Source of the DNA: Bacteroidales bacterium
GTDB lineage: Bacteria; Bacteroidota; Bacteroidia; Bacteroidales; GCA-2748055
DNA length: 48,408 nucleotides
NCBI GenBank assembly: GCA_029938715.1
Contig: JAOZUK010000019.1
Span: 1 to 48,408, forward strand
Reading direction: 5' to 3'
Made by a program: the position numbers and the translations under genes. Numbering within the stretch: position 1 is the stretch's first letter; each line of letters begins with the position of its first letter. Below are positions 6,291-48,145 of the stretch, piece by piece. The notes beneath the pieces were generated by a model. That model saw only the letters and a program-made list of their open reading frames with translations, made no database searches and was not told the DNA's origin.

Positions 6291-6311
6291 TAGTCTCTGT
6301 TTTTTTTAAGC

Positions 6312-19346: not shown

Positions 19347-19388
19347 TTCATGATTAGATTTATCTCACAAAACATCAAAACTATCAAT

Positions 19389-21002
19389 ATGAAACGACTA
19401 TTTCACCTTATAATACTGTTATTCACTGTTTCAAATGCCATTGCTCAGGTGATATCAATAATTCCTAAACCTGCAGAATTGTCTGTTAAATCGGGAACAT
19501 TTTTATTAAACAGTGAATGTTCACTTCAATTTGATGCTGCCAATGAAGAGGTGGTTCGGATTGCAGATTTTTTTAATGATTACCTGCAAAACATGTATGG
19601 TTACAAAATCGAAGAACACTCAGAAGGAAGAGCAATACATTTAAAAATTAGCAGTCGGGTAAAACTAGGCAAAGAAGGATATGTGCTGAAAGTAGAACAA
19701 AATTCAATTGCAATTACTGCTTCAGAACCAAATGGACTCTTTTATGGAGTACAATCATTAAAACATCTACTGCCGATTGAGGCAAAAGATGGTGAATTGA
19801 AAATTCCATGTTTGGATATTGAAGACCAGCCCCGCTTTAAATGGCGCGGAAATATGCTGGATGTGAGCCGCCACTTTTTCCCGGTAAGCTTCATAAAGAA
19901 ATACATCGATATTCTGGCGATGTATAAAATCAACACTTTTCAAATGCACCTGACTGATGATCAGGGTTGGCGAATAGAGATCGAGAAATATCCGCTGCTC
20001 ACAGAAAAGGGTGCATGGAGGGTGGGCACAGGAGAAGAAGCGTGGAATCCTTTTGTGGGACCCGCCATTAAAGGAAAACCAAAATACGGAGGCTTCTATT
20101 CGCAGGAAGAGATAAAAGAAATTGTGCAATATGCCAAAGACCGGTTTATCACGGTTGTCCCGGAGATAGAAATGCCGGCACATTCAAGGTCTGCCCACGA
20201 TACCTACCCTGCCGAGCTCTCCTGCACAGGAGAACCTTACCTGGTATTTAATATGCCGGATTCTATTACAAGCGATTTTGAAATACCGCTCCTCTGTGCG
20301 GGAAAGGAAGAGACTTTCCTCTTTCTGGAAAATGTGTTAGAGGAGGTAATCGAACTTTTTCCATCAGAATATATACATATAGGTGGGGACGAAGCCCTGA
20401 AAACCCGGTGGGAGAAGTGTCCAGCCTGCAATAAACGCATGCAGGATGAAGGATTTAATAATACGCAGGAGTTACAGAGCTACTTTATTAAAAGAATTGA
20501 AAAATACGTTAATTCCAAGGGGCGGAAGATCATCGGATGGGATGAAATACTGGAAGGCGGACTGGCTCCAAATGCCGCTGTGATGTCGTGGCGGGGTACA
20601 GAAGGTGGGATCGCTGCCGCAAAAGCAAACCACAAGGTAGTTATGTCGCCTACAACACATTGTTATTTGGATTATCATCAATTTCAGCACGAGAAAAATG
20701 CCTACCCTGCAGTGGGCAGTTTTCTTCCGGTAGAAAAAGTCTATAGTTACGAACCTATTCCTGAAGAGCTATCTGAGAAAGAAGCAACATATATTTTGGG
20801 TGTTCAAACCAACCTTTGGACCGAATACGTTGCTACCACCAAACATGCGGAATATATGCTTTTACCCCGGTTACAAGCCCAGGCTGAAGTTGCATGGACA
20901 AAGAAAGGTTTAAAAGAGTTTTCCGATTTTGAAAAAAGGTTGGAAAGCGACTATCAACGATTGGAAAAAATGGGGATAAATTTCGGGGACCACAGGAGAT
21001 AA
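19389..21002 (+). CDS. beta-N-acetylhexosaminidase (GH20)
   Basis: This is a 537-residue protein from ATG 19389, which starts a clean Sec signal (MKRLFHLIILLFTVSNAIAQ). An in-frame ATG at 19350 adds 13 polar residues and is less likely. The GH20b-like N-terminal domain is followed by the TIM barrel: LDVSRHFF, MHLTDDQGWRIEIEKYP and PEIEMPAHS. The catalytic Asp-Glu pair is at about D334-E335 in HIGGDEA. GWDEILEGGL and NLWTEY line the active site at the end. GH20 removes terminal beta-linked GlcNAc or GalNAc by substrate-assisted catalysis using the 2-acetamido group. Its presence implies N-acetylhexosamine in the target glycan. It probably acts in the periplasm. Confidence 0.92.
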   Translation: MKRLFHLIILLFTVSNAIAQVISIIPKPAELSVKSGTFLLNSECSLQFDAANEEVVRIADFFNDYLQNMYGYKIEEHSEGRAIHLKISSRVKLGKEGYVLKVEQNSIAITASEPNGLFYGVQSLKHLLPIEAKDGELKIPCLDIEDQPRFKWRGNMLDVSRHFFPVSFIKKYIDILAMYKINTFQMHLTDDQGWRIEIEKYPLLTEKGAWRVGTGEEAWNPFVGPAIKGKPKYGGFYSQEEIKEIVQYAKDRFITVVPEIEMPAHSRSAHDTYPAELSCTGEPYLVFNMPDSITSDFEIPLLCAGKEETFLFLENVLEEVIELFPSEYIHIGGDEALKTRWEKCPACNKRMQDEGFNNTQELQSYFIKRIEKYVNSKGRKIIGWDEILEGGLAPNAAVMSWRGTEGGIAAAKANHKVVMSPTTHCYLDYHQFQHEKNAYPAVGSFLPVEKVYSYEPIPEELSEKEATYILGVQTNLWTEYVATTKHAEYMLLPRLQAQAEVAWTKKGLKEFSDFEKRLESDYQRLEKMGINFGDHRR

Positions 21003-22285: not shown

Positions 22286-25033
22286 ATGAACAGGTCCTTT
22301 ACTGTATTAACAGTTTTAGCTTTTTGCCTGAGCTGTTCAAACCCTGCAGATCTGAGGATATCAGATTTAAAGTCTGCAGGACTTGTGGATCCTTCAGCTA
22401 TCGATGTGAAAGCTCCGCGGCTCAGTTGGATTATTGAATCTGCACAGAAGGGAGAGAAGCAGACGGCATACCATATCCTTATGGCAGGCAGCAGGGAAAA
22501 CCTGGATAAAAACATCGGTGACCTGTGGGATTCACAAAAAGTTGAATCTGACAACTCCACCTCAGTAATCTATGGGGGAACTGAACCTGTGGCAGGCATG
22601 GAGCTCTTCTGGAAAGTAAAAGTATGGAACACAGATGACCGTGAATCTGCCTGGAGCCCCACTGCGAAATGGAGCATGGGACTGCTTCACGAATCGGATT
22701 GGAAGGCTCATTGGATTGGCATTGACAGGGCCATTGGCAACGACAAACCCGATCAGGAACACAGGATATTAACAGCCAGGTATTTGAGGAAGGAATTCCG
22801 GATTGAGAAACCAGTACGAAGGGCAATGGTCTATATCGTTGGACTTGGTGTATATGAGTTGAATTTAAATGGTAAAAAGGTAGGAGACCATGTTCTGTCG
22901 CCCGGACTTACAGAATACCCGAAACGCTCCTTTTACATTGCATATGACATCACCAACATGATTATCGTGGGAGAGAATGCGGTTGGGACCATACTCGGGA
23001 ACGGCAGGTATTTTGCTCCCCGCTTCGAATTGCCTACGCACACCATTACCTACGGATATCCTAAAATGCTTGCACGGATCTCCCTGGAATATGAAGATGG
23101 ATCCAGAGAGATCATATCAACCGATACTACCTGGAAAATCACGACTGATGGACCAATCCTTGAAAACAATGAATATGATGGAGAGTATTACGATGCCAGG
23201 AAAGAGATGTCGGGTTGGAACCAACACGGATATGATGACTCAGGCTGGACGCAGGCAGAGATCGTGGAAAAACCTTCCGACGTGATTTCAGCACAAATGA
23301 CCGAACCCATCAGAATTACAGAGACAATCAAACCAGTAGCCATATCCAATCCACAACCCGGAGTCTACATCGTTGATATGGGGCAGAATATGGTTGGCTG
23401 GACCAGGCTGAGTCTGCGGGCTGACAGGGGGACCATTGTGAAACAGCGTTTTGCTGAAACTCTCAGGGAGGATGGAACCCTGGACATGGACAACCTCCGT
23501 TCTGCCAGAGCAACGGACACATATATCACCAAAGGCAATGGGGAAGAGACCTTTGAACCCCGGTTTGTGCTTCACGGCTTCAGATATGTTGAGTTGACAG
23601 GTTATCCGGGCATCCCCGATCTTTCAGCCATTGAAGGCAGGGTGATTCATGATGCTCTTGACCTTGTGGGCAGTTTTGAATGTTCTGATGAACTGATCAA
23701 CAAAATCTATCAAAACGCTTATTGGGGAATCAGGGGAAACTACAGAAGCCTTCCGGTTGACTGTCCACAGCGTGATGAAAGACAGGCCTGGCTGGGAGAC
23801 CGTGCAGTAGAGTCACGAGGTGAAAGTTATATGTTTAATGTATCAAATCTCTATGGCAAATGGCTGACTGATATTTTTGATGCACAGAAGGAGAGCGGAA
23901 GCATCTGTGATGTATCTCCGGCTTACTGGCCGTTCTACAATGACAATGTTACGTGGGCCGGAACCCCGGTTGACCTGGTCAGTATGCTGTGTGATCAGTA
24001 TGGAGATCATGGTATAGTTGAGAAGAGCTACTCCTCACTAAAGAAATGGGTGGATTATATGGTTGGGAATTTTATGGAGCGGGACCTGATGCCAAAAGAT
24101 CAGTACGGGGACTGGTGCTCCCCCCCCATTGATCCGAAGAGGAACACCCTTGTGGACGATCCAGCGCGCATCACAACCGGAGAGTACCTGGGCTCATCCT
24201 ATTTTTATCATTACCTGAGACTGATGGAAGGTTATGCCGGGATGCTTAATCGTACGGAAGATGTGGCATATTTCGGTGACCTTGCTGAAAGAATGAAGAC
24301 CGCTTTCAATAAGGAGTTCTTTAACCCTGAAACCCGACAATACAGCAATAATTCGGCCACCGCCAACATCCTGGCCCTTGCTTTTGAGCTGGTCGGGCCA
24401 GAGCACGAGCAGGAGGTTTTTAATAACCTGGTGGAGAAAATCGAAGTGGATAATAACTCCCACGTGGCCACCGGCCTGATCGGTCAGCAATACGTGAACC
24501 GGATCCTGACCAAATATGGACGGGCCGACCTGGCCCATACAGTGAATACACAAACGGACTTTCCGGGATACGGATATATGATCGAAAACGGAGCCACAAC
24601 CATTTGGGAACTGTGGAATAGTAATATGATCGGTCCCATCATGAATTCAAGGAATCATGTGATGATGCTTGGCGATTTCCTGATCTGGCTATATGAGGAT
24701 CTGGCAGGTATCAAACCCGATGTTGAAAATCCCGGATTTAAGCACATCATAATGAAACCAACTCTCATTGAAGGACTTAGCTTTGTGAAAGCATCCCACA
24801 AATCGCCCTACGGGATGATTAGAAGTGAATGGAGAATAGAGGGTAAAGATTTTGAATGGGAATTGAGTATCCCGGTGAATACCACTGCAACCCTCTTCCT
24901 GCCGGTGAAAGACAAACCTGAAATTTTAGAGGAAGGTAAAATTTATCAGGTTTCGGATAGTACTCTTCAGAACGGTGTTGTAACCTTAAACCTCTCCTCC
25001 GGGAACTATCACTTTGTGAGTACATTGGAATGA
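22286..25033 (+). CDS. alpha-L-rhamnosidase (GH78), copy 3, lipoprotein
   Basis: This 915-residue protein has a lipoprotein signal (LAFCLSC, cysteine at about residue 17). N-terminal KAPRLSW and the GLGVYELNLNGKKVG segment (about 187-200) mark the GH78 accessory domains. The catalytic motif is canonical: DCPQRDERQAWLGD (492-505) with E498 as the general acid, and ENGATTIWELWNS with E775 as the base. It is more canonical than the 16593 copy and shares only family-level similarity with it, so the two probably release rhamnose from different positions. The 3' end is followed immediately by a small hairpin (25034-25052). Confidence 0.92.
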   Translation: MNRSFTVLTVLAFCLSCSNPADLRISDLKSAGLVDPSAIDVKAPRLSWIIESAQKGEKQTAYHILMAGSRENLDKNIGDLWDSQKVESDNSTSVIYGGTEPVAGMELFWKVKVWNTDDRESAWSPTAKWSMGLLHESDWKAHWIGIDRAIGNDKPDQEHRILTARYLRKEFRIEKPVRRAMVYIVGLGVYELNLNGKKVGDHVLSPGLTEYPKRSFYIAYDITNMIIVGENAVGTILGNGRYFAPRFELPTHTITYGYPKMLARISLEYEDGSREIISTDTTWKITTDGPILENNEYDGEYYDARKEMSGWNQHGYDDSGWTQAEIVEKPSDVISAQMTEPIRITETIKPVAISNPQPGVYIVDMGQNMVGWTRLSLRADRGTIVKQRFAETLREDGTLDMDNLRSARATDTYITKGNGEETFEPRFVLHGFRYVELTGYPGIPDLSAIEGRVIHDALDLVGSFECSDELINKIYQNAYWGIRGNYRSLPVDCPQRDERQAWLGDRAVESRGESYMFNVSNLYGKWLTDIFDAQKESGSICDVSPAYWPFYNDNVTWAGTPVDLVSMLCDQYGDHGIVEKSYSSLKKWVDYMVGNFMERDLMPKDQYGDWCSPPIDPKRNTLVDDPARITTGEYLGSSYFYHYLRLMEGYAGMLNRTEDVAYFGDLAERMKTAFNKEFFNPETRQYSNNSATANILALAFELVGPEHEQEVFNNLVEKIEVDNNSHVATGLIGQQYVNRILTKYGRADLAHTVNTQTDFPGYGYMIENGATTIWELWNSNMIGPIMNSRNHVMMLGDFLIWLYEDLAGIKPDVENPGFKHIIMKPTLIEGLSFVKASHKSPYGMIRSEWRIEGKDFEWELSIPVNTTATLFLPVKDKPEILEEGKIYQVSDSTLQNGVVTLNLSSGNYHFVSTLE

Positions 25034-25101: not shown

Positions 25102-26082
25102 ATGAGAATACCGTCATTTGCAACTTTGCTAACTCTCATTTTTATAAGTACAATCTTTAGCTCCTGCGTTAAAAAAAAGGAAGTGAGTGAACCAGCAACC
25201 TGGGCTGAGAGACTTGGATTTCCTGCCGGGAAGAAGGTAATTATACTTCATGCCGATGATGCAGGAATGTGTGAAGAAGCCAATATTGCCACAGCTCAAT
25301 TGCTTGAAAACAATGAGATACAATCAGCAGCAGTGATGCTCCCCTGCCCCAATGCTGAAGAGTTTATCCAGTGGGCCATTGATCATCCTGATTCAGATGT
25401 GGGGCTGCACCTTACCCTGACCAGTGAATGGAAGACTCACAGGTGGGGTCCCGTTTCAGATCCTGCATTAGTTCCCGGACTGATCGACCCGGAAGGTATG
25501 TTATGGCCTACTGTTCCTGAAGTTTTGATGAACGCCACAGTGGAAGAAATCGAAATAGAAATAAGGGCCCAGATTGATAGGTCCATTGCCCTTGGATATC
25601 AGCCCGGTCATATTGACACACATATGGGTACGTTGTACAGTCATCCGGATTATGTGAAGGTGTTTTACAAATTGGCCGAAGAGTATCAAATACCTGCAAA
25701 TGCCATAGATCTGTCTGATTCTACTGTTGTCGAATTCTTAAGAAATGCAGGTTACCCCATAGATGATCAAATCATTGGACTGGCAGATGAATACTCCCTG
25801 CCAAAACTCGATTTCATCACATGGGTACCCTTTGGCGAGACTTATGAGGAGAAAGTTGAAGACTTTATGACCCTGATCAGGTCATTCTCTCCAGGTCTGA
25901 CTGAAATTGTTTTTCATCCTTCAGTGGAGACGGAGAACCTGAAAACCATTACCAATTCATGGCAACAGAGGGTCTGGGAGGTTAAAATGTTCTCAGATCC
26001 TGATCTGATCAAGTTTTTTGAAGAGGAAGGAATTATCTTCACAAACTGGATTGAGATCATGAGTAGGTTTTCGGAACTATAG
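25102..26082 (+). CDS. ChbG/YdjC-type carbohydrate deacetylase, lipoprotein
   Basis: This 326-residue protein belongs to the YdjC/ChbG superfamily. These are metal-dependent deacetylases of N-acetylated oligosaccharides such as chitobiose. Key elements are HADDAG (50-55, the Asp pair with a metal-binding Asp), GLHLTL (101-106) and HIDTHMG (170-176). The N-terminus is unusual: IFSSC gives a lipobox cysteine at residue 22, so the enzyme should be exported and membrane-anchored, whereas E. coli ChbG is cytoplasmic. With the GH20 of the same operon it points to N-acetylated sugars in the substrate. It is the last gene of the operon and converges on the 26122 gene with only 39 bases between; I see no clear terminator there. 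Confidence 0.82.
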   Translation: MRIPSFATLLTLIFISTIFSSCVKKKEVSEPATWAERLGFPAGKKVIILHADDAGMCEEANIATAQLLENNEIQSAAVMLPCPNAEEFIQWAIDHPDSDVGLHLTLTSEWKTHRWGPVSDPALVPGLIDPEGMLWPTVPEVLMNATVEEIEIEIRAQIDRSIALGYQPGHIDTHMGTLYSHPDYVKVFYKLAEEYQIPANAIDLSDSTVVEFLRNAGYPIDDQIIGLADEYSLPKLDFITWVPFGETYEEKVEDFMTLIRSFSPGLTEIVFHPSVETENLKTITNSWQQRVWEVKMFSDPDLIKFFEEEGIIFTNWIEIMSRFSEL

Positions 26083-26121: not shown

Positions 26122-27432
26122 CTACTTAACACTCAATTCTATCACTACAGATCCACCGGGCTCCAGGGTCCAATCTGTGAGTGACCCCTCTGCGGAAGTG
26201 GCATCAATGGAGGCAAAAATCCCTTCTGCGTTCCATTGAGGTAAAACTTTCAGCGAAAATGCAGCAGGTTCTTCACAACTGCTGTTGGAAATCACAACAC
26301 GGGCCATTTGATTCATTTTGTATGTCCCGATAACAATATTAGCATTCTCACCTTCTGGAGAGATGACAGGAGAGTATCCACCCTGGATCAGCTTACCTTC
26401 CTTATAGCGTGCCACATCCGAATTATCCCAATCCAGCAATCCCTTTCCAGCCTTTTTCAGATAGAAATTGGCTTCACTCACATGGTCATATAATTCAGTA
26501 CGGATACCATTTATATCTATCATTGCATTGTAATGGGATTCAACCAGAAACGGTTCTGCCTCTTCATCCTGCTGAAAGCCCTGGTCAGGTAGTGGTGTCC
26601 AGTAGCAAAACCAGCCAACTCCACGGGTCCCATATGCCAGAGCAGTGTTGACCTGCCATAGTATTTCCTGCCTGTTTGGTACCCGAAGTCCACCTTTGAT
26701 CCCTTCACTCTGCATAAAAACAATGAAGGGTATATTTGCCTTCCTGGTCTCCTCTCTAACAGTTGTCAGGTCATTGAACCATTCATCATACCAAGTGGCT
26801 CCTTCTCTGAGTGCATAATTATCATAAGAGAGCAACCCAGGTTTGACCGTTTCAATAAATGAAATGATATGGGAGCGGTAATCATCAAACCCAAGCTGCA
26901 CAGGACTACCATAGGATGGCAGAAGATTGATAAGCGGCTCATGCAATGGGTCTTCTGCTCGAAAAATGTCAGAGATATCCCTTAAACCAGGGAAAAGATC
27001 ACCACTGGGTTCGTCCCTGACCACGTAGGCAGCGAATGCCTTATGATCTTTGTAGTCATTTGCAATTTCTCTGATGGCCGATGTATCCACTGAACCAACC
27101 TTCTCCAACGTAAAGGGCATGAGCCGCATATCAACTGGAATGATCTTTATACCGGTCTTCTGGCCAAGGTCCATTGCTTTGAGATTTTGTTCTCCATTGA
27201 AAGTCCCGTTGCCCGGTACCAGGTATTCTATCCCCGATTCAGCAATCTCCTGGTATCGTTCCAGGGTGACCTCTTTCAGGGGCGGCCCCGAATAGCCAAT
27301 GATTTTAAAATCTGTCAGAAATGTGGGCTCATCCTGATCGGTGGTCGCTTGATCCCCGGTATTACCTGTACCACAACTCACAAGGAGTCCCAGAAGAACG
27401 AAAATGAGGAAATGAAAGGCTGCTTTTCTCAT
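26122..27432 (-). CDS. TIM-barrel lipoprotein, paralogue 1 of a tandem triplet
   Basis: This 436-residue lipoprotein has its lipobox cysteine at residue 20 (LLVSC). The strand-helix pattern of a glycosidase-type TIM barrel runs from about 40 to 350: FKIIGYSGPP, IKIIPVDMR, AAYVVRDEP with D140-E141, LLSYDNYALR, IPFIVFMQSEG, and RVPNRQEILWQVN leading into GVGWFCYWTP. Residues of about 360-436 form a beta-sandwich like those after clan GH-A barrels. DEP at the end of strand 4 is a plausible acid/base position, but a nucleophile glutamate is not obvious. I do not recognise the family. The two following genes are close paralogues with identical numbering through residue 141. Confidence 0.6.
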   Translation of the reverse strand: MRKAAFHFLIFVLLGLLVSCGTGNTGDQATTDQDEPTFLTDFKIIGYSGPPLKEVTLERYQEIAESGIEYLVPGNGTFNGEQNLKAMDLGQKTGIKIIPVDMRLMPFTLEKVGSVDTSAIREIANDYKDHKAFAAYVVRDEPSGDLFPGLRDISDIFRAEDPLHEPLINLLPSYGSPVQLGFDDYRSHIISFIETVKPGLLSYDNYALREGATWYDEWFNDLTTVREETRKANIPFIVFMQSEGIKGGLRVPNRQEILWQVNTALAYGTRGVGWFCYWTPLPDQGFQQDEEAEPFLVESHYNAMIDINGIRTELYDHVSEANFYLKKAGKGLLDWDNSDVARYKEGKLIQGGYSPVISPEGENANIVIGTYKMNQMARVVISNSSCEEPAAFSLKVLPQWNAEGIFASIDATSAEGSLTDWTLEPGGSVVIELSVK

Positions 27433-27442
27433 GGCGTTTGAA

Positions 27443-28735
27443 TTATTTCAGATCGATCGTCACTGAACCGCCTGGTTCCAGGGTCCATTCTGCGAAGGAT
27501 CCCTCTGAAGAAGTTGCATCAATCGATGCAAAAATCCCGCTAATTTCCCAATCGGGAGAAACTTTCAGAGAAAATGTGGCAGGATTATCCCAGTTGCTGT
27601 TGGATAGTACAATGCGGAGCCTCTCATCCTTCCGGAATGTCCCGATAATCAGGTTGGCATCAACACCTTCTGGTGTGATCACAGGAGAGGATCCCTGAAC
27701 AAGTTCCCCTTTCTCAAATCTTGCTGCATCTGAATTATCCCATCCCAGGAGACCCTTTCCGGCTTTAATCAGATACTGGTTTTCCTCCTTCACATAATCA
27801 TAGAGTTTGGTTCGATTACCCTCAAGATCGATTATGGCATTATAATGAGGTTCTATCAGCCGTGGTTTATCATCCTCATAGGCAATGCTCCATCCGTGAT
27901 CAGGCAGCGGGTTCCAGTATGCAAACCATCCGACCCCATTTGTACCATAGGCCAGGGCTGAATTTGCCTGCCACAGTATTTCAGCCCTGTCAGGCACCCG
28001 AAATCCATTGGTAATCGCTTCACTTAGAACAAACACCATGTAAGGAATATCTGCAGCTCTTGCAGCTTCCCTTACTATGGCCAGGTCACTGAACCACATT
28101 TCGTGTGTTGTTGTATCTATCCTCAGGGAATAATGGTCATAAGAAAGCAATTTCGGTTTTACGGTTTCAACGTAATTCTGGATATAAGCCCTGAAATCAT
28201 CCCCCACAGGTCCGTATGAAGGATTCACATTGATTGTAGACGCATGTGACGGATCAGCAGTCTGTAACAGCTCTGTGATCACTTTCAGTTCAGGGAACAG
28301 GTCAGCCTTAGGTTCATCCATGATTAAATAGGCAGCCAGTGCAGGGTGGTCCTTATAATCATTGACCATGCCAATCAGTGCGGCTGTATCGATTGTAATA
28401 CTCTGGTTAGCTGTAAATGGTAGTGTTCTGATGTCCCATGGTATGATTTTTATACCGACATCCATGGCAAGATCCATTATTTTCAGGTTCTGCTCAACAC
28501 TGAAATTCTGGTTGCCCGCCACCAAATATTCGATTCCTGCATCAGCGATTTCCTGGTATCGTTCAGGAGTAGTCTCCTCCGGGGGAGGACCTGAATAGGC
28601 CATGATAATAAAATCATTAAGGATAGTTAGCTCTGTGGCAGCGGTTTCTGTTTGATCTTCTTTAAGCCCTGTTCCGCAACTGATTATAAGTCCCGAAAGA
28701 ACTAAAGTGATGAGATACTTCGCATTTTTTTTCAT
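27443..28735 (-). CDS. TIM-barrel lipoprotein, paralogue 2 of a tandem triplet
   Basis: This is a 430-residue lipoprotein (IISC, cysteine 20). It shares all landmarks of its neighbours without gaps over the first 140 residues: FIIMAYSGPP, QEIADAGIEYLV, IIPWDIR, YKDHPALAAY, D140-E141 (MDEP), LLSYDHYSLR, RVPDRAEILWQ and YWNPLPDHGW. It ends directly after the beta-sandwich (GGSVTIDLK). It differs from the others in PW for PV at residues 99-100 and in the loop after strand 5, regions that would line a binding cleft, so substrate divergence is plausible. The gap to paralogue 1 is 10 bases. Function unknown; an exported glycosidase-like hydrolase is the best guess. Confidence 0.6.
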   Translation of the reverse strand: MKKNAKYLITLVLSGLIISCGTGLKEDQTETAATELTILNDFIIMAYSGPPPEETTPERYQEIADAGIEYLVAGNQNFSVEQNLKIMDLAMDVGIKIIPWDIRTLPFTANQSITIDTAALIGMVNDYKDHPALAAYLIMDEPKADLFPELKVITELLQTADPSHASTINVNPSYGPVGDDFRAYIQNYVETVKPKLLSYDHYSLRIDTTTHEMWFSDLAIVREAARAADIPYMVFVLSEAITNGFRVPDRAEILWQANSALAYGTNGVGWFAYWNPLPDHGWSIAYEDDKPRLIEPHYNAIIDLEGNRTKLYDYVKEENQYLIKAGKGLLGWDNSDAARFEKGELVQGSSPVITPEGVDANLIIGTFRKDERLRIVLSNSNWDNPATFSLKVSPDWEISGIFASIDATSSEGSFAEWTLEPGGSVTIDLK

Positions 28736-28775
28736 TGGATTCTTGGTTTAGTGTAAGGTTCTTTTATTAAGTATT

Positions 28776-28922
28776 TTATTGCATAGATTCCGCTCCAGTG
28801 GGAGTTTCCGAGTACCCGAAGGCTGTGGAGGTCCACATGGGGTTTATGACAGACATGCTATCAGTGAGGGCCCATTGTTCCTCTATTACCGTTATATTCT
28901 CCTGAGCCTGTACCGTGATAAC
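28776..28922 (-). pseudogene. gene remnant between paralogues 3 and 2
   Basis: Directly after the stop of paralogue 3, in the same frame, 48 further codons read as believable protein without a usable start. They begin VITVQAQENITVIEEQWALTD and end GAESMQ at a stop (28776-28778). The opening looks like the end of a signal peptide (VQAQ) plus the mature start of a secreted protein, and QWA-TD resembles the start of the 37834 protein (DQWAATDALGR). The sibling proteins end where paralogue 3 ends, so this is not simple loss of their C-terminus. It may be a deleted neighbour gene; chance cannot be excluded. Confidence 0.35.
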
Positions 28923-30245
28923 TTAGTGGCCTTTCATTTTCACCTCGATTACAACCGAACCACCCGGTTTAATGGCCCACTCCAGGAGGGATTCGTTTTG
29001 ACCTGACGGATCTGCGTCAATTGAAGCAAACACCTCCGCCGACTCATATCCGGGATCTAAATTCAGAGCAAATGATGTCGGTTCATCGCAACTGGCGTTG
29101 GAAATAACAAGGCGGGCACGATTGTCTTTGCGGTAGGTTCCGATAACGATATTTGCCTCCTCTCCTTCCAGTGATACAACAGGAGAAGATCCTTTCTGGA
29201 TTATCTTACCACCCTCATAGCGAGCCACATCCGTATTATCCCAGCCCAGAAGTCCCTTTCCTGCCTTCTTCAGGTAGAGATTGGCCTCGCGCACGTAATC
29301 ATACATTTCCGTACGGTTCCCGTGGATGTCAATGGGGCCATTGTGAAAATGTTCAATCATCGGGGGGGCTGCACCTTCAACATGAGGCACTCCCAATCCC
29401 GGATTTGGGGTCCAGTAGCTTAACCATCCGATTCCCCGGGCTCCATACGAAAGAACAGTATTCACCTGCCAGAGTATTTCGGCCCTGTCCGGGACACGCA
29501 ACCCCTCTTCCACGCCGTGGCTTTGAATAAATACCAGAAATGGAATACCTGCTTTACGGGTCTCCTCCCGAACAAGGGCAAGGTTACTGAACCACTCCTT
29601 GTATAGTGTAACTTCATTCCTTAGTACATATGAGTCATAGGAGAGTAAACCGGGTTTCACTATTTCAATAAAAGAGGTGATGTAGGCATCATAGTCTTCC
29701 ACACCAAATTGTGTGAGCGTGCCGTAGTTTGGAAAAAGACAACTCAACGATTCATTGTCCGGGTCCACAGTATGAAAAACATCGGCAATCTCCTTCAGTG
29801 CATGATACATGCTTATATTCGGTTCATCTTTGACAAAATAGCCTTCGAATGCCGGATGATCTTTGTAATCTCTTGCCATTTGTTTTATCACTGCGGTATC
29901 AATAGAAACATCCGGTTTCAGAGCAAACGGTATCAGGCGCATATCAACCGGGATGATCCCGATACCCACCTGTTCAGCCAGATCCAGGGCTTTCAGATTC
30001 TGCTCCAGGTTAAAGGTTCCGTTGCCCGGGACCAGGTATTCGATCCCTGCATCAGCAATCTCCTGGTACCGCTCCAGCGTGACCTCCTCAAGGGGCGGAC
30101 CGGAATAGGCCATGATGATGAAATCGTTTATTAGCCCCGATTCGTGTGTGCCGGTATCTGCCTGATCATTCGTGCCCCTGTTTCCACAACTGATCAGGAG
30201 CATGGAGAGCACAGCAGGTGATAGTAACTTAATTATTGCTTTCAT
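28923..30245 (-). CDS. TIM-barrel lipoprotein, paralogue 3 of a tandem triplet
   Basis: This is a 440-residue lipoprotein (LLISC, cysteine 20). It is closest in sequence to paralogue 1 in the GNGTF and VDMR segments and to paralogue 2 in FIIMAYSGPP. Shared motifs are D140-E141 (KDEP), LLSYDSYVLR, IPFLVFIQSHG, RVPDRAEILWQVN and GIGWLSYWTP. The C-terminal beta-sandwich ends GGSVVIEVKMKGH. As the first of the three in transcription order, it may be the ancestor of the duplication. No family name is offered; fold and context suggest an exported glycosidase-like protein. It begins 46 bases after the 30292 gene, itself a related barrel with a WDEPD motif. Confidence 0.6.
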   Translation of the reverse strand: MKAIIKLLSPAVLSMLLISCGNRGTNDQADTGTHESGLINDFIIMAYSGPPLEEVTLERYQEIADAGIEYLVPGNGTFNLEQNLKALDLAEQVGIGIIPVDMRLIPFALKPDVSIDTAVIKQMARDYKDHPAFEGYFVKDEPNISMYHALKEIADVFHTVDPDNESLSCLFPNYGTLTQFGVEDYDAYITSFIEIVKPGLLSYDSYVLRNEVTLYKEWFSNLALVREETRKAGIPFLVFIQSHGVEEGLRVPDRAEILWQVNTVLSYGARGIGWLSYWTPNPGLGVPHVEGAAPPMIEHFHNGPIDIHGNRTEMYDYVREANLYLKKAGKGLLGWDNTDVARYEGGKIIQKGSSPVVSLEGEEANIVIGTYRKDNRARLVISNASCDEPTSFALNLDPGYESAEVFASIDADPSGQNESLLEWAIKPGGSVVIEVKMKGH

Positions 30246-30291
30246 GCTGATTGTTTAAGTAATTGTTTTTGAAAGAATTGTGATTCACAAT

Positions 30292-31341
30292 CTATTTCTC
30301 ATCAGTACCGGGTTTCATTGCCTCTTTCACAATTTCCGGCACCGGTGGTTCTTCGCTTATGGCCCAGGGAAGCCCCAGGGGACTGGGCCTCCCAAAAATG
30401 GAACCGGCTATTTCCCGGTGGACCTTCATTAAATCCTGCGGGGGTCCGTCAATGGTAACGCCTGTTATGTTTTCGGCCGTTTTCAAATATCCATACTGAA
30501 ACCAGAGCAATCCGGTACATTTTGGTTGAGTAAGAGATATCATATAGTACCATAAACTTACTTCCGGAGTGGGAAATCCCTTTCCCTCTCCCGAGAGTGA
30601 GCCAAAGGCATCACCCACCATTAGAAAAGGCTTGTCCCATTTGTTTACCCACTCCAGGGCCAGGGCCAGCCTGGAGCGGTAAAACCTCTCAAAGTCTGCA
30701 GCAGCATGTTCACTGGCTTCATTCATAAGTACATAAGGATCCACCATCAATAGGTCATAATTATCCGGCGGCACCACATCGAGCGATTCTTCATTGATAA
30801 TGGCATAGCAGGTGGTTACTTTTACAGCCGGGAATACATTTTTAAACTCTGCTATATATTTTTCCATTATCTCTGGTCCCGGGATATGGTTCAGGTCCGG
30901 TTCATCCCAGAAGTATAAATAATCCAGGCTGTCCATCCATGGAACCCGTTCCTTAAGGATCATTAACGTCCTTTTATAATTGTCAAACTTATCAAACCTG
31001 ATCAGCGGGTAGAAGGGCGCTTCAGCTACAGTAACGTAATCGAGAGATTCGAGCAACTCAATCCTTCTGTTCATCTCGTCAAATACGGAGGGGGCAAATT
31101 TATCTATATTTCCATCCGCAATATCACGGATCATCCCGGATGTAATGCTGTCGAAACGGACCATTGAAAAAACAAGTGTATTGGCAAATTCTCTGATCTC
31201 CTTCAACTCTTTGTGTTCCAGATTCTCATTTTTATAGAAGTAACCATGGAATTTGAACCTGCTTGTGTCTGTAAGGCTTTGAGCATTTCCCTGAACCAGG
31301 AAAACCATCAATATCACTAAGAAAATATTAGTTCGATTCAT
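30292..31341 (-). CDS. secreted TIM-barrel protein with WDEPD motif
   Basis: This is a 349-residue protein with a Sec signal ending GNAQ (residue 21). A single barrel without a C-terminal domain is suggested by FKFHGYFY, YVTVAEAPFYPLIRF, YLYFWDEPDLNH (D146, E147), KVTTCYAI, YDLLMVDPYVL, KPFLMVGDAFG and GLLWFQYGYL. The DEP position matches that of the three following paralogues (D140-E141), so I infer a shared superfamily, though overall similarity is low. Acidic residues in MVGDAF and MVDPY could complete an active site. Function unknown. Confidence 0.55.
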   Translation of the reverse strand: MNRTNIFLVILMVFLVQGNAQSLTDTSRFKFHGYFYKNENLEHKELKEIREFANTLVFSMVRFDSITSGMIRDIADGNIDKFAPSVFDEMNRRIELLESLDYVTVAEAPFYPLIRFDKFDNYKRTLMILKERVPWMDSLDYLYFWDEPDLNHIPGPEIMEKYIAEFKNVFPAVKVTTCYAIINEESLDVVPPDNYDLLMVDPYVLMNEASEHAAADFERFYRSRLALALEWVNKWDKPFLMVGDAFGSLSGEGKGFPTPEVSLWYYMISLTQPKCTGLLWFQYGYLKTAENITGVTIDGPPQDLMKVHREIAGSIFGRPSPLGLPWAISEEPPVPEIVKEAMKPGTDEK

Positions 31342-31362: not shown

Positions 31363-32133
31363 TTAAAGGTTCTCAGGATCAATGGCATCAAATTCCCTTC
31401 TCATTCTTTTGTACCAATCTTCCAGGGTGGCCTCCACAAAGTAAATACGAGTAATGGCTGCAGCTGTCTCTCCGGGTTTAAGAGGTCCAAATGTGGGGGC
31501 GCTGTGTATGCATGAATACTCCCGGTTCTGAAATGTATAGAGCGCTGGTTTTGAAACCACTGCCACCATGTGCTTGTCGTCCATGGACCGGATGGCCATC
31601 CATCCCTCAATAGCCACATCTTCGGGTGTGGATTTGAATGCATCTACGAAAGGAATATCTTTACCCTCGGGTGCTCCCTCAACGCTGTATAGCTGTAGGG
31701 CAGGACGAGGTCCGAAAACACGCGGAATTTCGGTCAGCCGTTTGAACTCACCTTCTGATCTAATCCAATGGCGCTTGCCTTCATGGTCACGTATGGAAAT
31801 AGCTTCTTCACTATTAAAACAGTTAAATGCCTGGGTCTCATTCCATATTTCATTACTCCTGTTTGTAAGTCGAATTACAAAATCAACATAATCAGAATGA
31901 ATAATCACGTCAATGGTGTACTCGAGCACTTCCTCAACCCAGCCCCGGCCGGTCCAGTTTCCATCTTCAGCCTCCTGCCAGGTGCATTTGATCACATCAA
32001 ACCAGCGGGATTGATCGGTGGCGCCAATACTTTCAGGAAAGTTCACTTTGAAGATCTCACCTTCGAATCCCGGAACGTTGATAATCTGTGCACCCATTTG
32101 ATCAGGAGGAGCAATAAATTTTATTTTTTCCAT
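31363..32133 (-). CDS. beta-sandwich protein without signal peptide, unknown function
   Basis: This 256-residue protein starts MEKIKFIAPPDQMG, with no signal peptide, lipobox or membrane segment; nearly every other complete product of the cluster is exported. It is beta-rich, with alternating segments such as EYTIDVIIHSDYVDFVIRL and HMVAVVSKPALYTF, and ends EDWYKRMRREFDAIDPENL. It starts 7 bases after the FGE-like gene, so the two are tightly coupled. It could be a cytoplasmic partner or a sugar-binding sandwich, or the detached part of a larger exported protein whose N-terminus was lost. I do not recognise the family. Confidence 0.55.
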   Translation of the reverse strand: MEKIKFIAPPDQMGAQIINVPGFEGEIFKVNFPESIGATDQSRWFDVIKCTWQEAEDGNWTGRGWVEEVLEYTIDVIIHSDYVDFVIRLTNRSNEIWNETQAFNCFNSEEAISIRDHEGKRHWIRSEGEFKRLTEIPRVFGPRPALQLYSVEGAPEGKDIPFVDAFKSTPEDVAIEGWMAIRSMDDKHMVAVVSKPALYTFQNREYSCIHSAPTFGPLKPGETAAAITRIYFVEATLEDWYKRMRREFDAIDPENL

Positions 32134-32140
32134 AGTCAGT

Positions 32141-32944
32141 TTAAATTACACATCGAAAACCGTAAAAAGAACTTGGATTATTTATATGACCGCTGTTGCC
32201 ACGGGCAGCAGGGCGCAGATCGAGAATTTCTGTGGTTATCCATGCACCACCCTTCAGGAAAGCTGAATACTTAACGGCCCGGTCAAGATTTGAGTCATCG
32301 GCTGGTCCGTCACCGCACCATTCGAAAAGGTTCCCGGCCATATCCATAACCCCATAGGGACTGGCCCCGGAAGGGTGCGCATCTACAGGGTCTGTTGTTA
32401 GTACATTAGTTTCTGCGCGGTTCCAGCAACAGGCCTCCGGATCGAACTTATCTCCCCAGGGAAACATCCTTCCATCGGTCCCACGTGCTGCCTTTTCCCA
32501 TTCAGCTTCAGTAGGCAGTCTTTTACCAATCCATTCTGCATAGGCCATGGCATCCTCCTGGTTCACACTGCATACCGGATGGTTCAGGATTTCAGTTCCG
32601 GGGACGGCATCCATCCAGTGCTTTGGGGAGGTGTGGCCGGTCTCCTGACAGAATTCATGGTATTGTCTATTTGTAACAGGATACCTGTCAATCGTGTAGT
32701 CGGGCAGGTTGATTTCCTTTTGAGGGACCTCACTTTCCAGCCAGGAGGGATGATAACCGTACTCAGCAGCCAGCTTTCGCACCTGCTCAGCTGTGGTTCC
32801 CATAAGAAACTTGCCCGCCGGGATCAGGATCATATCCGCAGGATCTTTGGTCCGGCTACATGCACGGCTGATTCCCGGTAAACCCAGAAGAACTCCCCCA
32901 CCTGTGGCGGCCAGAATTCTTCCAATGAAATTTCTTCTTTTCAT
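32141..32944 (-). CDS. Tat-exported FGE-like (sulfatase-modifying factor domain) protein lacking catalytic cysteines
   Basis: This 267-residue protein has a twin-arginine signal (KRRNFIGR at 2-9, then a glycine-rich hydrophobic core). The rest is one formylglycine-generating-enzyme-like domain: MILIPAGKFLMG, YPVTNRQYHEFC, RLPTEAEWEKAARG, FPWGD, DMAGNLFEWCGDG, LKGGAW and FYGFRCV. True FGEs need a pair of cysteines between GG(S/A) and AAR (as recalled from human SUMF1, C336 and C341). Here that segment reads ITTEILDLRPAAR, with neither cysteine. It is therefore more likely a non-catalytic or otherwise adapted family member, such as a C-type-lectin-fold binding protein. No sulfatase is encoded nearby. 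Confidence 0.8.
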   Translation of the reverse strand: MKRRNFIGRILAATGGGVLLGLPGISRACSRTKDPADMILIPAGKFLMGTTAEQVRKLAAEYGYHPSWLESEVPQKEINLPDYTIDRYPVTNRQYHEFCQETGHTSPKHWMDAVPGTEILNHPVCSVNQEDAMAYAEWIGKRLPTEAEWEKAARGTDGRMFPWGDKFDPEACCWNRAETNVLTTDPVDAHPSGASPYGVMDMAGNLFEWCGDGPADDSNLDRAVKYSAFLKGGAWITTEILDLRPAARGNSGHINNPSSFYGFRCVI

Positions 32945-33152: not shown

Positions 33153-33305
33153 CTATTGATAAATCTCCGAAGCATCATGTGATCCATGCCAGAGAAAATA
33201 GAATACCCCTACATATTTATTAACCCGGGGAGTACCGGTCTCCTGTGCAAAGAGTGTTGAGAAAATCAATAACAGAGCTGCTGAAATTGCTATTTTAATT
33301 ATCAT
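33153..33305 (-). pseudogene. truncated secreted glycosidase-like gene, N-terminal remnant
   Basis: An ATG at 33305-33303 lies inside the last codons of the GH115-like gene (11-base overlap) and opens 50 codons. They encode a good signal peptide (MIIKIAISAALLLIF..., cleavage near LFAQ) followed by NKYVGVFYFLWHGSHD and a TAG stop at 33153. The segment KYVGVFYFLWHG matches the first barrel strand of the 604-residue protein at 37834 (KVIAMFYWTWHQG). The rest of the gene is missing in all frames downstream. I infer a deletion that left the start and signal peptide of a paralogue behind. Confidence 0.6.
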
Positions 33306-35475
33306 TCTCAAGAGCAATTATTTTACAAACTTCAGACATGGCATTACATGCATCCACTGTTCGATCCACATGAATGGCCCAGGCGCTACGCTCCCAAAAG
33401 GGATTGTTTGCTCCACTGAACCAATTCTCCCATTGATCGTGCTCAGCTTTTTTTCGGTAATCCCCGATCTTTATGATGCAATCAGAAGCCTTAATGAAAT
33501 ATTCGGAAGCCGCATTAAACTCTTTTCTACCGGCAGCCTCCATTCCCAATAGAAAGTTTCGGCCAAATTCGCGGGAATAGTAGGAAGAGATGAGATGGAG
33601 TATTACTGAATCAAAATAGAAGGATCTCCTTTCGGTAATTACCTTATCTTCAAGATCAAAAGCCAATTTCAATAATTCTCCCCACTGATCAGCCGAGGAT
33701 TGAAGATGGCCCAGATTAGCCTGACCATAACGGCCACCCTCTTTAAGTTTAAATTCAGTGGAATATCCGGCAATGGCTTCCGGATTGTTGTAGTTGTCTT
33801 TATAGAATTCAAAAATGGGTTTGGTAATTACCTCTTTAAGATCGTCATGTATATTGCTTAAGGGATCTATATACAACAGAGGAACAGTTACAGTTTCTAT
33901 GATGCTGTTGGCCCGGCACTCCGATTCCATCTCCCAGTAATTCATAAGTAGCTTTCCAATTTCATCACCCACATCTTCTCCGTACTGTTTACTGCACCAA
34001 TGATTGATAAACTCTGAATGATATGTGTTATCATTCATCCATGGCTCCGCATTGAAAGCAATGTCCATTCCGGCTGCTATCGTTAGCGGAATCTCACGGA
34101 TATCACCCACATTATACATAACCAGTGAGTTTGCACCAGCATCTATGACTTTTCTAAATTCATCCTGAATCTTCTTTACAGGTACATACTGCACCCACTG
34201 GTTGTCGCAATAGCTTAAGTGATAATAAACACCATGATTTTGATTGATTGAGAGATCCTTTTGAGACGGTAACGCAGGAAAAGTATTAAAACTACCTGCA
34301 TCGTTCCAGACAACAATGGTACTTTCAGGCAACTTCACAGCCCCTGTAAGGTATTGGGTCAGAAGATCGCCTCTCATTGAATAGGTTGTAATCGGATCAT
34401 CATCCAGGTGTTTCTCCAGGAGACTAATCTGTTTATCTACTGCCCCGGATGTTAATCCAGCCCTCTCTTCCGGGGATTCTGGTGCATCCGGATCCACATC
34501 TACATAATCTCTGTCATCCAGATACCTCAGACCAATGGGCCAGATGGTCTTATAGGGCATTTGCTTTTTAACTGCCTCTTCCCAATAGGCAGCAATGGAA
34601 TTTTCATGTTCTGACGATTTATAGAAAAGGTAATCCAGATCCTTGTTGAAATTTTCCTTACAAAAAAGAGCCCATTCAAACCGCGGATAGGTCATTAATA
34701 CCTGTAAATGTGAAGCGGAGTAATAGAGCCCCCGCTCTGTGGCAAGTTTTTTTATTTCGTCACCAAAGGGTAATGCATATTCACTTTCAACAAAAAAATT
34801 GCCCCGCAATCTCAGTATATATTCAAAAATTTCTGCCAGCACTTCCTTTTCAATATCATCATCATTACCCTTCCAGCTCATCAGGAAATTCTCATCATTG
34901 ATAAAAAATCCTCTGAATTTAAATGTGGGTGGCCCCTGAAACCTTGTGGGTTCATTCCATGTGACATTTTTTCGTTGGGTTGGGATAGCATCTGTCCAGT
35001 ACTTCTGCGGGTCCGTTCCAAATGCTTTTTCGCTTACCTCATAAAGTCCATAAATTACACCACGAATATCACTGCCGGCTATGATCAGCATCTGATCAAT
35101 CTGGTCCAGGTTGAGATCTACTTGCTGAATAAGGGTTGATTCCCATTTACCTTCCAATGCTCCTAAATCGAGCTGCGCTTCCAATTCCTTAATTCCATAC
35201 GATTCAAGATCCCCAGCTACAATTGGTATAATAACATGTCCAATTCCATCCTGGAGATTGCTTATTACAGGCAATTTGGTTCCACAAACATCCATGCAAT
35301 CTTCATTAAAATCCTCCACAGCATATTTGAGGGCGCCTGATGCATGATCCGGTAAGTAAATTGAAGCTGCTGGTTTTGATGACCTGACAATCTGGAAAGA
35401 CTGCTCCTGTTTATTGCAGCCTGATAAAGATGATAGTAAGAAGAAAAAGATCAATGTATTAATAAGGTTTCTCAT
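33295..35475 (-). CDS. GH115-like (alpha-glucuronidase family) lipoprotein, divergent
   Basis: This is a 726-residue lipoprotein (lipobox cysteine 20, SLSGC). It follows GH115 landmarks: GVIYGLYEVSEKAFGTDPQKYWTD (about 139-162), FKFRGFFINDENFL (185-198), LRLRGNFF (221-228), MYNVGDIREIPL with AGMDIAFNAEPW, and HWCSKQYG. GH115 removes 4-O-methyl- or plain glucuronic acid alpha-1,2-linked to polysaccharide backbones. It is shorter than the usual 800-950 residues and lacks the C-terminal domain. The segment recalled as SHHEPM in canonical members reads SHLQVL here, which may mean altered substrate or activity. It is coupled to the remnant gene by an 11-base overlap and starts 9 bases after the 35485 stop. 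Confidence 0.75.
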   Translation of the reverse strand: MRNLINTLIFFFLLSSLSGCNKQEQSFQIVRSSKPAASIYLPDHASGALKYAVEDFNEDCMDVCGTKLPVISNLQDGIGHVIIPIVAGDLESYGIKELEAQLDLGALEGKWESTLIQQVDLNLDQIDQMLIIAGSDIRGVIYGLYEVSEKAFGTDPQKYWTDAIPTQRKNVTWNEPTRFQGPPTFKFRGFFINDENFLMSWKGNDDDIEKEVLAEIFEYILRLRGNFFVESEYALPFGDEIKKLATERGLYYSASHLQVLMTYPRFEWALFCKENFNKDLDYLFYKSSEHENSIAAYWEEAVKKQMPYKTIWPIGLRYLDDRDYVDVDPDAPESPEERAGLTSGAVDKQISLLEKHLDDDPITTYSMRGDLLTQYLTGAVKLPESTIVVWNDAGSFNTFPALPSQKDLSINQNHGVYYHLSYCDNQWVQYVPVKKIQDEFRKVIDAGANSLVMYNVGDIREIPLTIAAGMDIAFNAEPWMNDNTYHSEFINHWCSKQYGEDVGDEIGKLLMNYWEMESECRANSIIETVTVPLLYIDPLSNIHDDLKEVITKPIFEFYKDNYNNPEAIAGYSTEFKLKEGGRYGQANLGHLQSSADQWGELLKLAFDLEDKVITERRSFYFDSVILHLISSYYSREFGRNFLLGMEAAGRKEFNAASEYFIKASDCIIKIGDYRKKAEHDQWENWFSGANNPFWERSAWAIHVDRTVDACNAMSEVCKIIALENDN

Positions 35476-47800: not shown

Positions 47801-48041
47801 CATCTCTTTCAAGGGCAAAACTGGCTTTTCCTAATACCTGTTGCCGCAGCCACATGTCTGGTTTAGCCGGATAGGTTATCAGTCCAGGCTCAAGACCCTG
47901 ATGATCAACACAAATAATGGCATCATGATAGGCTGTAAACCAGTCGTTGTATCCTGCAAATTTCACCTGTGCGTTTAATGAAACCAGGGTGAACAATATA
48001 GACAATGCTGAAACTGATAATCTGATATTGATTTTTTTCAT
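44889..48041 (-). CDS. large secreted (alpha/alpha)6-type glycosidase-like protein, family unassigned
   Basis: This is a 1050-residue protein from ATG 48041, which begins a good Sec signal (MKKINIRLSVSALSILFTLV, cleavage near LNAQ). An upstream in-frame ATG (48104) would add a second, poorer hydrophobic stretch. Residues of about 25-290 are a beta-supersandwich; about 300-660 a helical toroid (ETFKWGVLCLEYCY, FLWNHHFLWDVEHYLDKTGDL, DFVNTPNDGGSAGMAGIEML, EGGEMFEAFADLV, SFYLEGIIEGLFGIRWRD). The SFYLEGIIEGLFGI stretch resembles the end of GH78/GH95-type toroids. About 670-1050 is beta-rich with several modules. It looks like a new or distant glycoside hydrolase; the catalytic acids cannot be assigned. 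Confidence 0.55.
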   Translation of the reverse strand: MKKINIRLSVSALSILFTLVSLNAQVKFAGYNDWFTAYHDAIICVDHQGLEPGLITYPAKPDMWLRQQVLGKASFALERDGTEFLFHHAGDARWIPENHGFRLTGTVEGVFFNIECVPVIHGRESPDREGAAIFKTNLSGLKKGDQIVVNYGGLARGGFVLPHVRYELLASDGFECAANNSVKAESGMAVISSPDLSVIVGVKGLENGKLVPFVKHPDLNVARAIFSPDKSKTDDLYVIVGFAEEEKKLNSFLPDKPGMALQETTSYFEDIVRIAAIKTPVHNIDETFKWGVLCLEYCYYQPLGWIESLDHWLTLYSMMYPRVADHLGQTTRSKLCLLEHGRNIDPTGRINNLCPSGKVRNDFLWNHHFLWDVEHYLDKTGDLNTIRELYEPTKRVFEQTFNTYDKDKNLLIGFDQQIGYQEDFVNTPNDGGSAGMAGIEMLRIMSVLAEAIGNEEDTKKYAQQEKIARATLDAEIWDTGLGRYLYYVDHYGIKHWDGQYHTFSWPSMYGFSDMFGKYTSLRYMKERLISPSGLIYVSNNFPEHVAHTTGCQEGAPQTPIAAQAFSAGGFSNEGGEMFEAFADLVMAPQNLGCFPETAQNEGTSFSPTASFYLEGIIEGLFGIRWRDRGQVLTLAPSLPDTWPQASISLPDIELDILQTETSREMNLTLNQAITTSLEWILPPANSYKVTVNGKTVQPQYKPAVKGIKMNIDLPKSTRHTVKVDFSPLEINLEYPSTIKEGTEFQCHSGNSPIIGIRDPSGLLTSVEFNKNKAELILAQGLMKDFMKFGSLAGETFSRRTFFVKLDGGEQPFYWPVDIKVEQSVMEIELIEQARTGQSFSLPFPKNQTATDWKKFRIFDATRALGLNQIVNPLQGLKDMGESLGDSIFRIKSDMGQVFDFHSDSLLVVSDNLSTPSVTFHVDKEISKMHFLVLSYVNNKDVFADEVGQIIVRCNKPEEEQKVAICSPEPHLVKQTLCYPGNIDNWMPISGSHGYHSAGRGWSTSPVISTEKSVFSIITIDLNQGDEVESITINSVGRMPALGIVAITAEK

Positions 48042-48145
48042 CACCTTAAAAATAACGATAAGAATCAATTTCAATGTATACCTTCGTTTTATTGTGCATA
48101 TCAACTTATTTTTTAAGCATCATTTAAAAAGAAGAGACTGAATCA

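Follow-up and report, generated by a model that had tools for sequence, protein, structure and literature searches.

The window analysed here, a stretch of DNA of 48,408 nucleotides, carries three neighbouring genes for putative lipoproteins of 436, 430 and 440 residues (paralogues C, B and A), with a fourth open reading frame, encoding 349 residues, immediately upstream (gene 30292; Table 1). The three proteins align without gaps through the first 178 columns, the other two being 58% and 53% identical to the 440-residue paralogue A; the motifs D140-E141-P, LLSYDxYxLR, RVPxRxEILWQxN and GxGWxxYWxP are all found in the triplet alignment, and in each protein a lipobox-like cysteine can be read by eye behind an N-terminal hydrophobic stretch. 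On these points the open reading frames and the alignment agree with the preliminary description of the locus, which had also placed the triplet in glycan-degrading surroundings, as is borne out by the GH20, alpha-L-rhamnosidase, GH115 and YdjC-like genes around it. Close copies of the 256-residue protein occur in three genomes, always clustered with a member of the family to which the triplet belongs.

Table 1. Genes of the triplet and its surroundings in the window
Gene or product	Coordinates	Strand	Remarks
Second alpha-L-rhamnosidase-family protein	16593-19346		
GH20-family protein	19350..21002	plus	
Alpha-L-rhamnosidase-family protein	22286..25033	plus	Bac_rhamnosid6H
YdjC-like protein	25102..26082	plus	deacetylase-type; convergent with paralogue C
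Paralogue C	26122..27432	minus	436 aa lipoprotein; motifs as in paralogue A
Paralogue B	27443..28735	minus	430 aa lipoprotein; motifs as in paralogue A
Paralogue A	28923..30245	minus	440 aa lipoprotein; D140-E141, D204-x-Y206; 239-241 non-acidic; structure predicted from this one
Gene 30292	30292..31341	minus	349 aa; signal-peptide-like N-terminus; D146-E147-P, D201-P-Y203; Asp244 at possible strand-7 catalytic place
256-aa protein	31363..32133	minus	no evident signal peptide; no Pfam family over cut-off
SUMF1/FGE-sulfatase-domain protein	32141..32944	minus	Tat-like N-terminus (by eye); same conserved cassette as 256-aa gene
GH115 protein	33295..35475	minus	upstream; same strand as triplet

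None of the triplet proteins or the 30292 protein exceeds a Pfam or NCBIfam cut-off. The triplet has no match at E<=10 to PF02449 (GH42) or to PF00728 (GH20 catalytic domain), the latter also finding nothing at E<=0.1 among the 28 aligned family rows; DUF4091 (GH123) gives no match in triplet or family rows, despite the DE pair there, and the Ta1207 and DUF4434 matches stay below cut-off. Searches of PDB sequences with paralogue A alone, the three-row alignment, gene 30292, gene 37834 or the C43 protein discussed below returned nothing usable. A profile search of PDB sequences placed GH42 enzymes at the top (5.8e-7), and the PF02449 cut-off was passed by three of nine wider-family members checked singly (L022, L028 and L031) and failed by six. 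The earlier statement that no assigned family is recognisable thus holds, in Pfam and NCBIfam, for the four window proteins, but not for the wider family, which is GH42-related. No relatives were found in two viral-contig scans. In the open-access literature on GH42-like new families, missing nucleophiles and substrate assistance, the family is not described in titles and abstract openings, and there was no paper on DUF4434 with a glycoside hydrolase or on rhamnose/GH20 loci with GH42-like proteins.

Gene 30292 is likely a remote relative of the triplet, as had been proposed. Its product has WDEPD at the position matching the triplet DEP and a weak similarity to the triplet (BLASTP E 9e-4 in one single comparison), and hhalign against the family profile gives a score of 37.1 (probability 45.7%), above the maxima of 29.4 over 200 shuffles of 30292 and 30.4 over 22 other window proteins. 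It has no relatives in the other 392 of the 393 genomes searched in its order. The triplet itself had been attributed to local amplification, which is doubtful: paralogues A, B and C each have their own orthologue in another genome, that of paralogue C in locus L009 being placed after the SUMF-like/256-aa gene pair, and sequence comparison therefore indicates that they are old paralogues, not the products of recent local amplification.

A model of paralogue A predicted from 10 sequences (pLDDT 79.8, pTM 0.82) has a TIM barrel, its eight strands in order, and a C-terminal beta-sandwich; a single-sequence model (pLDDT 35.8, pTM 0.23) was set aside. Strand 4 spans residues 135-140, with E141 just past it, and strand 6 residues 201-204, with D204 at its end. 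Domain B is absent from the model, in which, within a total of 440 residues, the last barrel helix ends at 331 and the first sandwich strand starts at 336. Among the 50 structural matches listed, whose ranges state only the outermost aligned residues, GH42 comes best (4uoz, Z 29.7, rmsd 3.0, 350 residues) and GH164 next; no GH123 or GH20 chain appears in these 50, which does not speak for a different fold. The triplet fold is thus predicted to be a GH-A-type TIM barrel with a GH42-type sandwich, in line with the barrel first suggested.

In clan GH-A enzymes, strand 4 and strand 7 each carry a catalytic Glu. Asp140, Glu141, Asp204 and Tyr206 are invariant in the 28 aligned family members, even though the distant ones are 21-31% identical to paralogue A, and none of the 28 has Asp or Glu at 239-241, the place of the strand-7 nucleophile. 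In alignments to 3tts and 5e9a (the latter with a profile of eight wider-family members), the GH42 nucleophile lies opposite a non-acidic residue and D204-x-Y206 lies opposite the GH42 D-x-Y; Asp140-Glu141 align with the GH42 Asn-Glu (sugar-binding and acid/base residues). D140, E141, D204 and Y206 thus match residues of the GH42 minus-1 subsite, and the strand-7 nucleophile is absent from all 28 members. E141 had been expected at the end of strand 4, facing a carboxylate on another strand: the model places it there, but its strand-7 acidic partner is missing, while the D204 of strand 6 is present in all 28. The position equivalent to the nucleophile is 240 or 241, depending on alignment register; the former is non-polar in 27 of the 28 (Thr in one), and the latter is Leu in 16 and Gln in nine. 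The apparent non-polar lining of this position depends on the same register and is given little weight.

The GH42 beta-galactosidases (BiBga42A, BlGal42A (4uoz) and the Rahnella enzyme (5e9a)) share with the triplet the barrel and C-terminal sandwich predicted for it, the strand-4 acid/base Glu and the strand-6 D-x-Y. The triplet differs in lacking the strand-7 nucleophile and space for the trimerisation domain B, in falling below the Pfam cut-off, and in having Asp where GH42 has Asn ahead of the acid/base Glu; moreover, the O4/O6-binding residues (Glu366 and His369 in BiBga42A) are apparently replaced when the wider family is aligned to 5e9a. GH164 beta-mannosidase Bs164 resembles the triplet in the fold predicted for paralogue A (Z about 27.5) and in the location of the acid/base, but it has Asn159 before Glu160, the strand-7 nucleophile Glu297 and domain B, according to PMC7105311, and the last two have no counterpart in the triplet. 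In BiBga42A, as described in PMC10688820, O2 is bound by Asn159 and Asp285 and the anomeric O1 by Asp285 and Tyr287, and the kcat of 580 per second on pNP-Gal drops to 6 on Y287F substitution. The same paper bears on the possibility that the triplet proteins are inverting glycosidases, in which E141 would be the general acid and D204 a general base activating a water at the place of the former GH42 nucleophile carboxylate: nucleophile-less BiBga42A has a water at the nucleophile position, hydrogen-bonded to Asp285, the homologue of D204, and BiBga42A E318A retains some hydrolysis of LNT when the enzyme concentration is high, with alpha-Gal product seen, although alpha-Gal appears in other GH42 structures too (PMC10688820). 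The invariance of D204 would fit such a mechanism, as would a Gln at 241 that could hold a water, but this Asp is already present in retaining GH42 enzymes, so that its conservation is not specific to the triplet family; the mostly non-polar residues at 240 and the frequent Leu at 241 also speak against inversion, which leaves the Asn-to-Asp change at 140 unexplained, and we consider it unlikely.

The loss of the nucleophile in all 28 aligned family members, the lipoprotein signals and the retention of the paralogues across speciation would also suit GH42-derived, lipid-anchored glycan binders that no longer hydrolyse, the paralogues binding different decorations of one glycan. However, a general acid is seldom kept by pure binders, and the acid/base Glu, the neighbouring Asp and the D-x-Y are strictly invariant despite the divergence of the family, making this explanation improbable.

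The reading that best fits the alignments, the predicted structure and the analogy to known enzymes, and which we put forward tentatively, at somewhat less than even probability, is that the triplet family comprises nucleophile-less GH42-like enzymes whose substrates are 2-acetamido sugars and whose catalysis is substrate-assisted. E141 would be the general acid/base, and D140, in place of the O2-holding Asn of GH42, would orient the 2-acetamido group of a HexNAc residue, which D204 and Y206 may help to hold; the acetamido oxygen would stand in for the lost enzyme nucleophile, with retention via an oxazoline-type intermediate, the route taken by GH20 and GH123. Adjacent Asp-Glu pairs are described as serving substrate assistance in GH123 (PMC11087588) and in GH20 (PMC4752478); the likeness to the triplet is confined to arrangement, and the Pfam models of these families give no sequence match.

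Asp-Glu in place of Asn-Glu, on a related fold (5gsm, Z 20.9), is also found in the exo-beta-D-glucosaminidase GlmA, which is GH35-assigned but GH42-like; we take 5gsm to be a GlmA. The Asp of GlmA binds the C2 amine and the nucleophile Glu347 is retained, whereas the triplet family has Asp-Glu and no nucleophile; counting against substrate assistance, that Asp is said to clash with a 2-acetamido group (PMC6566704). A sister family (G000:C43 type) has Asp-Glu in six of six members and, in five of the six, a strand-7 Glu as well, one place off the GH42 register. These six rows are the C43 matches in the catalytic region for which the locus was retrieved, G396 having a second copy that is left out of the six; a C43 match occurs in 45 of 80 genomes, most spanning the C-terminal secretion tail only. 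The chance figure of 1.3e-8 that goes with the C43 comparison was calculated after the fact and presumes random placement of invariant columns. Since the sister family combines both features, Asp-Glu alone does not imply substrate assistance. The displaced Glu also lends something to the proposal that the triplet proteins are conventional retaining enzymes relying on another carboxylate, for example E243 in those members that have it, D204 acting as the nucleophile or, for gene 30292, D244. Glu243 is present in paralogues B and C, and 30292 has an Asp at strand 7; Glu243, however, occurs in only six of the 28 members, with His in paralogue A, and we regard this proposal as very improbable.

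The likely substrate, if catalysis is substrate-assisted, would be a beta-linked HexNAc within a rhamnose-containing heteroglycan, processed jointly with the neighbouring GH20, GH78-type, GH115 and deacetylase-type proteins, different linkages or decorations perhaps falling to each of the three old paralogues. Neighbourhoods were compared over 19 loci from 15 genomes; the named-genome loci L008-L012 were not counted (the L010 genes are the same as G408:C229), the G140 hit (E 4.5e-7) was left out as no L059 open reading frame matches the 28-row profile at 1e-5, and G000:C43 was left to the sister family. GH20 lies within 10 kb at five of the 19 loci, against 0.44 expected under uniform placement, a null that ignores gene clustering; as a cluster-aware control, the GH78 genes of these genomes have GH20 nearby in 6 of 124 cases (p 0.007, one-sided Fisher test), the 124 including fragments and the neighbour counts being read by eye and recounted once. 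One family member is fused to GH20, and GH89 (NAGLU) adjoins the L009 member. The remaining 14 loci have no GH20 within 10 kb, and three of the 15 genomes have none at the cut-off used. GH78 turns up as a neighbour more often than GH20, at seven of the 19 loci, and therefore the scissile sugar could be another. Proximity to RhaA was dropped as a main argument, being seen at two of the 19 loci (by eye), both in one genus; four RhaA rows of G416 were counted as two.

It is possible, if rather doubtful, that the triplet represents a new glycoside hydrolase family in the GH42/GH164 branch of clan GH-A, one that has dropped the covalent nucleophile for substrate-assisted catalysis on N-acetylhexosamines, with the sister family as an intermediate state in which GlmA-like recognition preceded the loss. 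If so, the switch between covalent and neighbouring-group catalysis could be tested by comparing or swapping residues between the triplet family and its sister, and a role would be suggested for proteins of HexNAc and rhamnose loci that family models leave blank or weakly match as beta-galactosidase.

The DEP-motif lipoproteins A, B and C belong to a family that is GH42-like but trimmed and devoid of the nucleophile, and that lacks at least one of the membership features tested for each of GH42, GH164, GH20, GH123 and GlmA. The observation behind the preliminary description, which proposed a candidate new glycosidase family, is real, and more specific than first worded. The three genes lie head to tail with gene 30292, a candidate fourth relative (table below). 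Identity to A is 58% for C and 53% for B, the three align without gaps across the first 178 columns, and all of the motifs originally listed are present in each protein; moreover, none of the four matches a Pfam or NCBIfam model above cut-off, in line with the initial impression that they have no assigned family.

Family genes and their upstream neighbours in the window
Feature	Position	Strand	Description
Gene 30292	30292-31341	minus	349 aa ORF
A	28923-30245	minus	440 aa ORF
B	27443-28735	minus	430 aa ORF
C	26122-27432	minus	436 aa ORF
256-aa protein	31363	minus	upstream of family genes; family cassette neighbour
SUMF-like protein	32141	minus	upstream of family genes; cassette neighbour
GH115 protein		minus	upstream, same strand

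A model of A built from ten sequences (pLDDT 79.8, pTM 0.82; residues 1-35 and 279-298 unreliable) has strands at 43-47, 70-72, about 96-97, 135-140, 165-170, 201-204, 236-240 and 271-274, and a C-terminal beta-sandwich at 336-437. The top structure by VIA-align is GH42 4uoz (Z 29.7, rmsd 3.0, 350 residues), followed by GH164 (Z about 27.5), a beta-1,2-glucosyltransferase group (Z 24.1 and below), GH2 glucuronidases and a GH140 apiosidase (Z about 21.6) and 5gsm (Z 20.9); a GH42 chain is also the best Foldseek match, ahead of GH157, GH35, GH164 and others. The structural alignment begins where the GH42 barrel begins and reaches the last GH42 domain; the 440-residue chain of A has no space for domain B. 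The sequence evidence is concordant: GH42 structures are the best PDB matches of the profile of A3, the 28-row family alignment (5xb7 at 5.8e-7), and PF02449 is matched at E<=0.1 by 17 of the 28 members, its cut-off being exceeded by three of the nine listed individually.

When an 8-row wider-family profile is aligned to 5e9a by HMMER (numbering from excerpts of PMC7105311, with a hand-counted offset of 25), the acid/base of 5e9a lines up with E141 and its D-x-Y with D204-x-Y206, and its nucleophile falls on a non-acidic position; A3 aligned to 3tts gives the same correspondences. In BiBga42A, O2 is bound by Asn159 and Asp285, the anomeric O1 by Asp285 and Tyr287, and the Y287F mutant has a kcat of 6 per second with pNP-Gal as substrate, down from 580 (excerpts of PMC10688820). 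Because of these alignments and roles, the counterparts of Asn159, Glu160, Asp285 and Tyr287 account for four of the six invariant columns (D140, E141, P172, D204, Y206 and G268), an overlap with a chance of about 1e-8 if invariant columns were random, a rough figure computed after the fact. The Asn159 counterpart is Asp in all 28 members, and none of the 28 carries an acidic residue at positions 239-241, the nucleophile being lost. An acid facing E141 from another strand is present only as D204, on strand 6; the strand-7 partner typical of GH-A is absent.

A protein of the same genome (contig C43) is a remoter relative (E 1.6e-11 with the 28-row profile) and, with five relatives, typifies a sister family, split in the tree from the 28 rows with support 100/99 (five sister rows; L069 excluded for an internal stop, L070 a long branch). 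Asp-Glu and D-x-Y are present in all six sister proteins and the strand-7 Glu in five, in a KPVWxWIETT-like context one place off the GH42 register; L070 has Gln there. The one-place offset puts the counterpart of the nucleophile at either 240 or 241, and the loss in the 28 holds at both. The C43 protein (5358-6773; L042, L065) carries a Por secretion tail, and the adjoining ORF resembles, by eye, an alpha-L-fucosidase.

Gene 30292 is probably, though not certainly, a relative: its DEP aligns with D140-E141-P and its D201-P-Y203 with D204-x-Y206. The hhalign score against the family profile is 37.1 (E 2.1e-4, probability 45.7%); 200 shuffles reach at most 29.4, and 22 other proteins of the window at most 30.4. 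It gives no signal with the sister-family profile (score 15.1), and a search of 393 genomes of its order detects no relative outside its own genome. Since it has Asp244 at the nucleophile-equivalent place, it may not share the nucleophile loss. The score of 30.4, the highest after the four genes, belongs to a 604-aa protein without Pfam match (37834-39648), which has relatives close to family members at four further loci (L044, L046, L047 and L051; two copies in L046, a fragment in L044).

An Asp-Glu pair without a nucleophile fits, by analogy, neighbouring-group participation, in which the 2-acetamido group of the substrate would replace the enzyme nucleophile. In GlmA, Asp-Glu stands in place of Asn-Glu, the Asp contacts the C2 amine and the D178N mutant has no activity (excerpts of PMC6566704); the DE pair of GH123 comprises the acetamido stabiliser and the acid/base in substrate-assisted catalysis (PMC11087588, in part), and a GH20 enzyme has an invariant Asp437-Glu438 pair (PMC4752478, in part). 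Against this, the authors of the GlmA study argue, in the excerpts, that an acetamido substituent would collide with this Asp in GlmA, and the sister family combines Asp-Glu with a strand-7 Glu. Alternatively, the reaction could be inverting, with D204 as the base, for which nucleophile-less GH42 mutants offer a precedent (excerpts of PMC10688820).

Of 395 genomes of the phylum, three match the A-C profile (the source genome and G140, later dropped, among them), as do 14 of 393 from the order (source genome included). A scan of genome contigs yields five loci, one from a Eubacterium; at 1e-10, the 28-row profile finds no genome but the source among 295 of the class. Eight A3 rows form a close group, in which the GMC6 genome is represented by a single orthologue for each of A, B and C (78%, 72% and 74% identity), so the duplications are older than the split of the two lineages, which disfavours a recent local amplification. 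A 199-aa copy (G000:C242:49621-50205; L061:9610-10206) joins residues 1 to about 144 in frame to about 383 onward, right after DEP, at an N-A-S stretch also found at the corresponding C-terminal place of A; either a deletion within the gene or a collapse in the assembly would account for it.

The SUMF-like, 256-aa and family genes recur as a trio in L009 and L010; in the window, 30292 sits between the 256-aa gene and A. Close copies of the 256-aa protein occur, among the 393 genomes of the order, only in the window and G408 (L010); outside the window, the source genome also has a weak match to it (E 3.5e-8). The pair of a SUMF1-like protein (Tat-like start) and the family-less 256-aa protein (window 31363-32944, L009:3253-4831, L010:6389-7986) lies in a cluster with a family member in each of the three genomes seen to have close copies. 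The window also encodes GH20, two GH78-type, YdjC-like, GH116, GH5-type and two DUF2961 proteins; large ORFs without Pfam match at 0.001 (1702-3702, 35485-37797 and 44889-48104) lie in the same glycan-degrading cluster.

The 19 family loci considered, from 15 genomes, have GH20 within 10 kb in five cases (0.44 expected), GH78 in seven (0.91 expected) and RhaA in two (0.10 expected). Merging three loci of one genus leaves 5/17 for both GH20 and GH78, and leaving out the window as well, 4/16 for each (p 0.0005 and 0.004, respectively). As a control for clustering, the 124 GH78 genes of these genomes were treated likewise: six have GH20 within 10 kb (one-sided Fisher p 0.007 against 5/19; 0.001 once the three of these six that lie at family loci are removed). 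A fusion also occurs: in L037, identical to L057, the GH20 catalytic domain and a family member form a single 961-aa chain (L057:7810-10692). The Eubacterium member has a GH20-like gene two genes on and, later, sugar-kinase- and RhaA-like genes; that of L009 is followed by GH89, and in one genus the member has rhamnose-catabolism genes on one side and a GH78-type gene on the other. Neither association is present at other family loci. A glycan containing both HexNAc and rhamnose would explain the association of the family with GH20 and with GH78.
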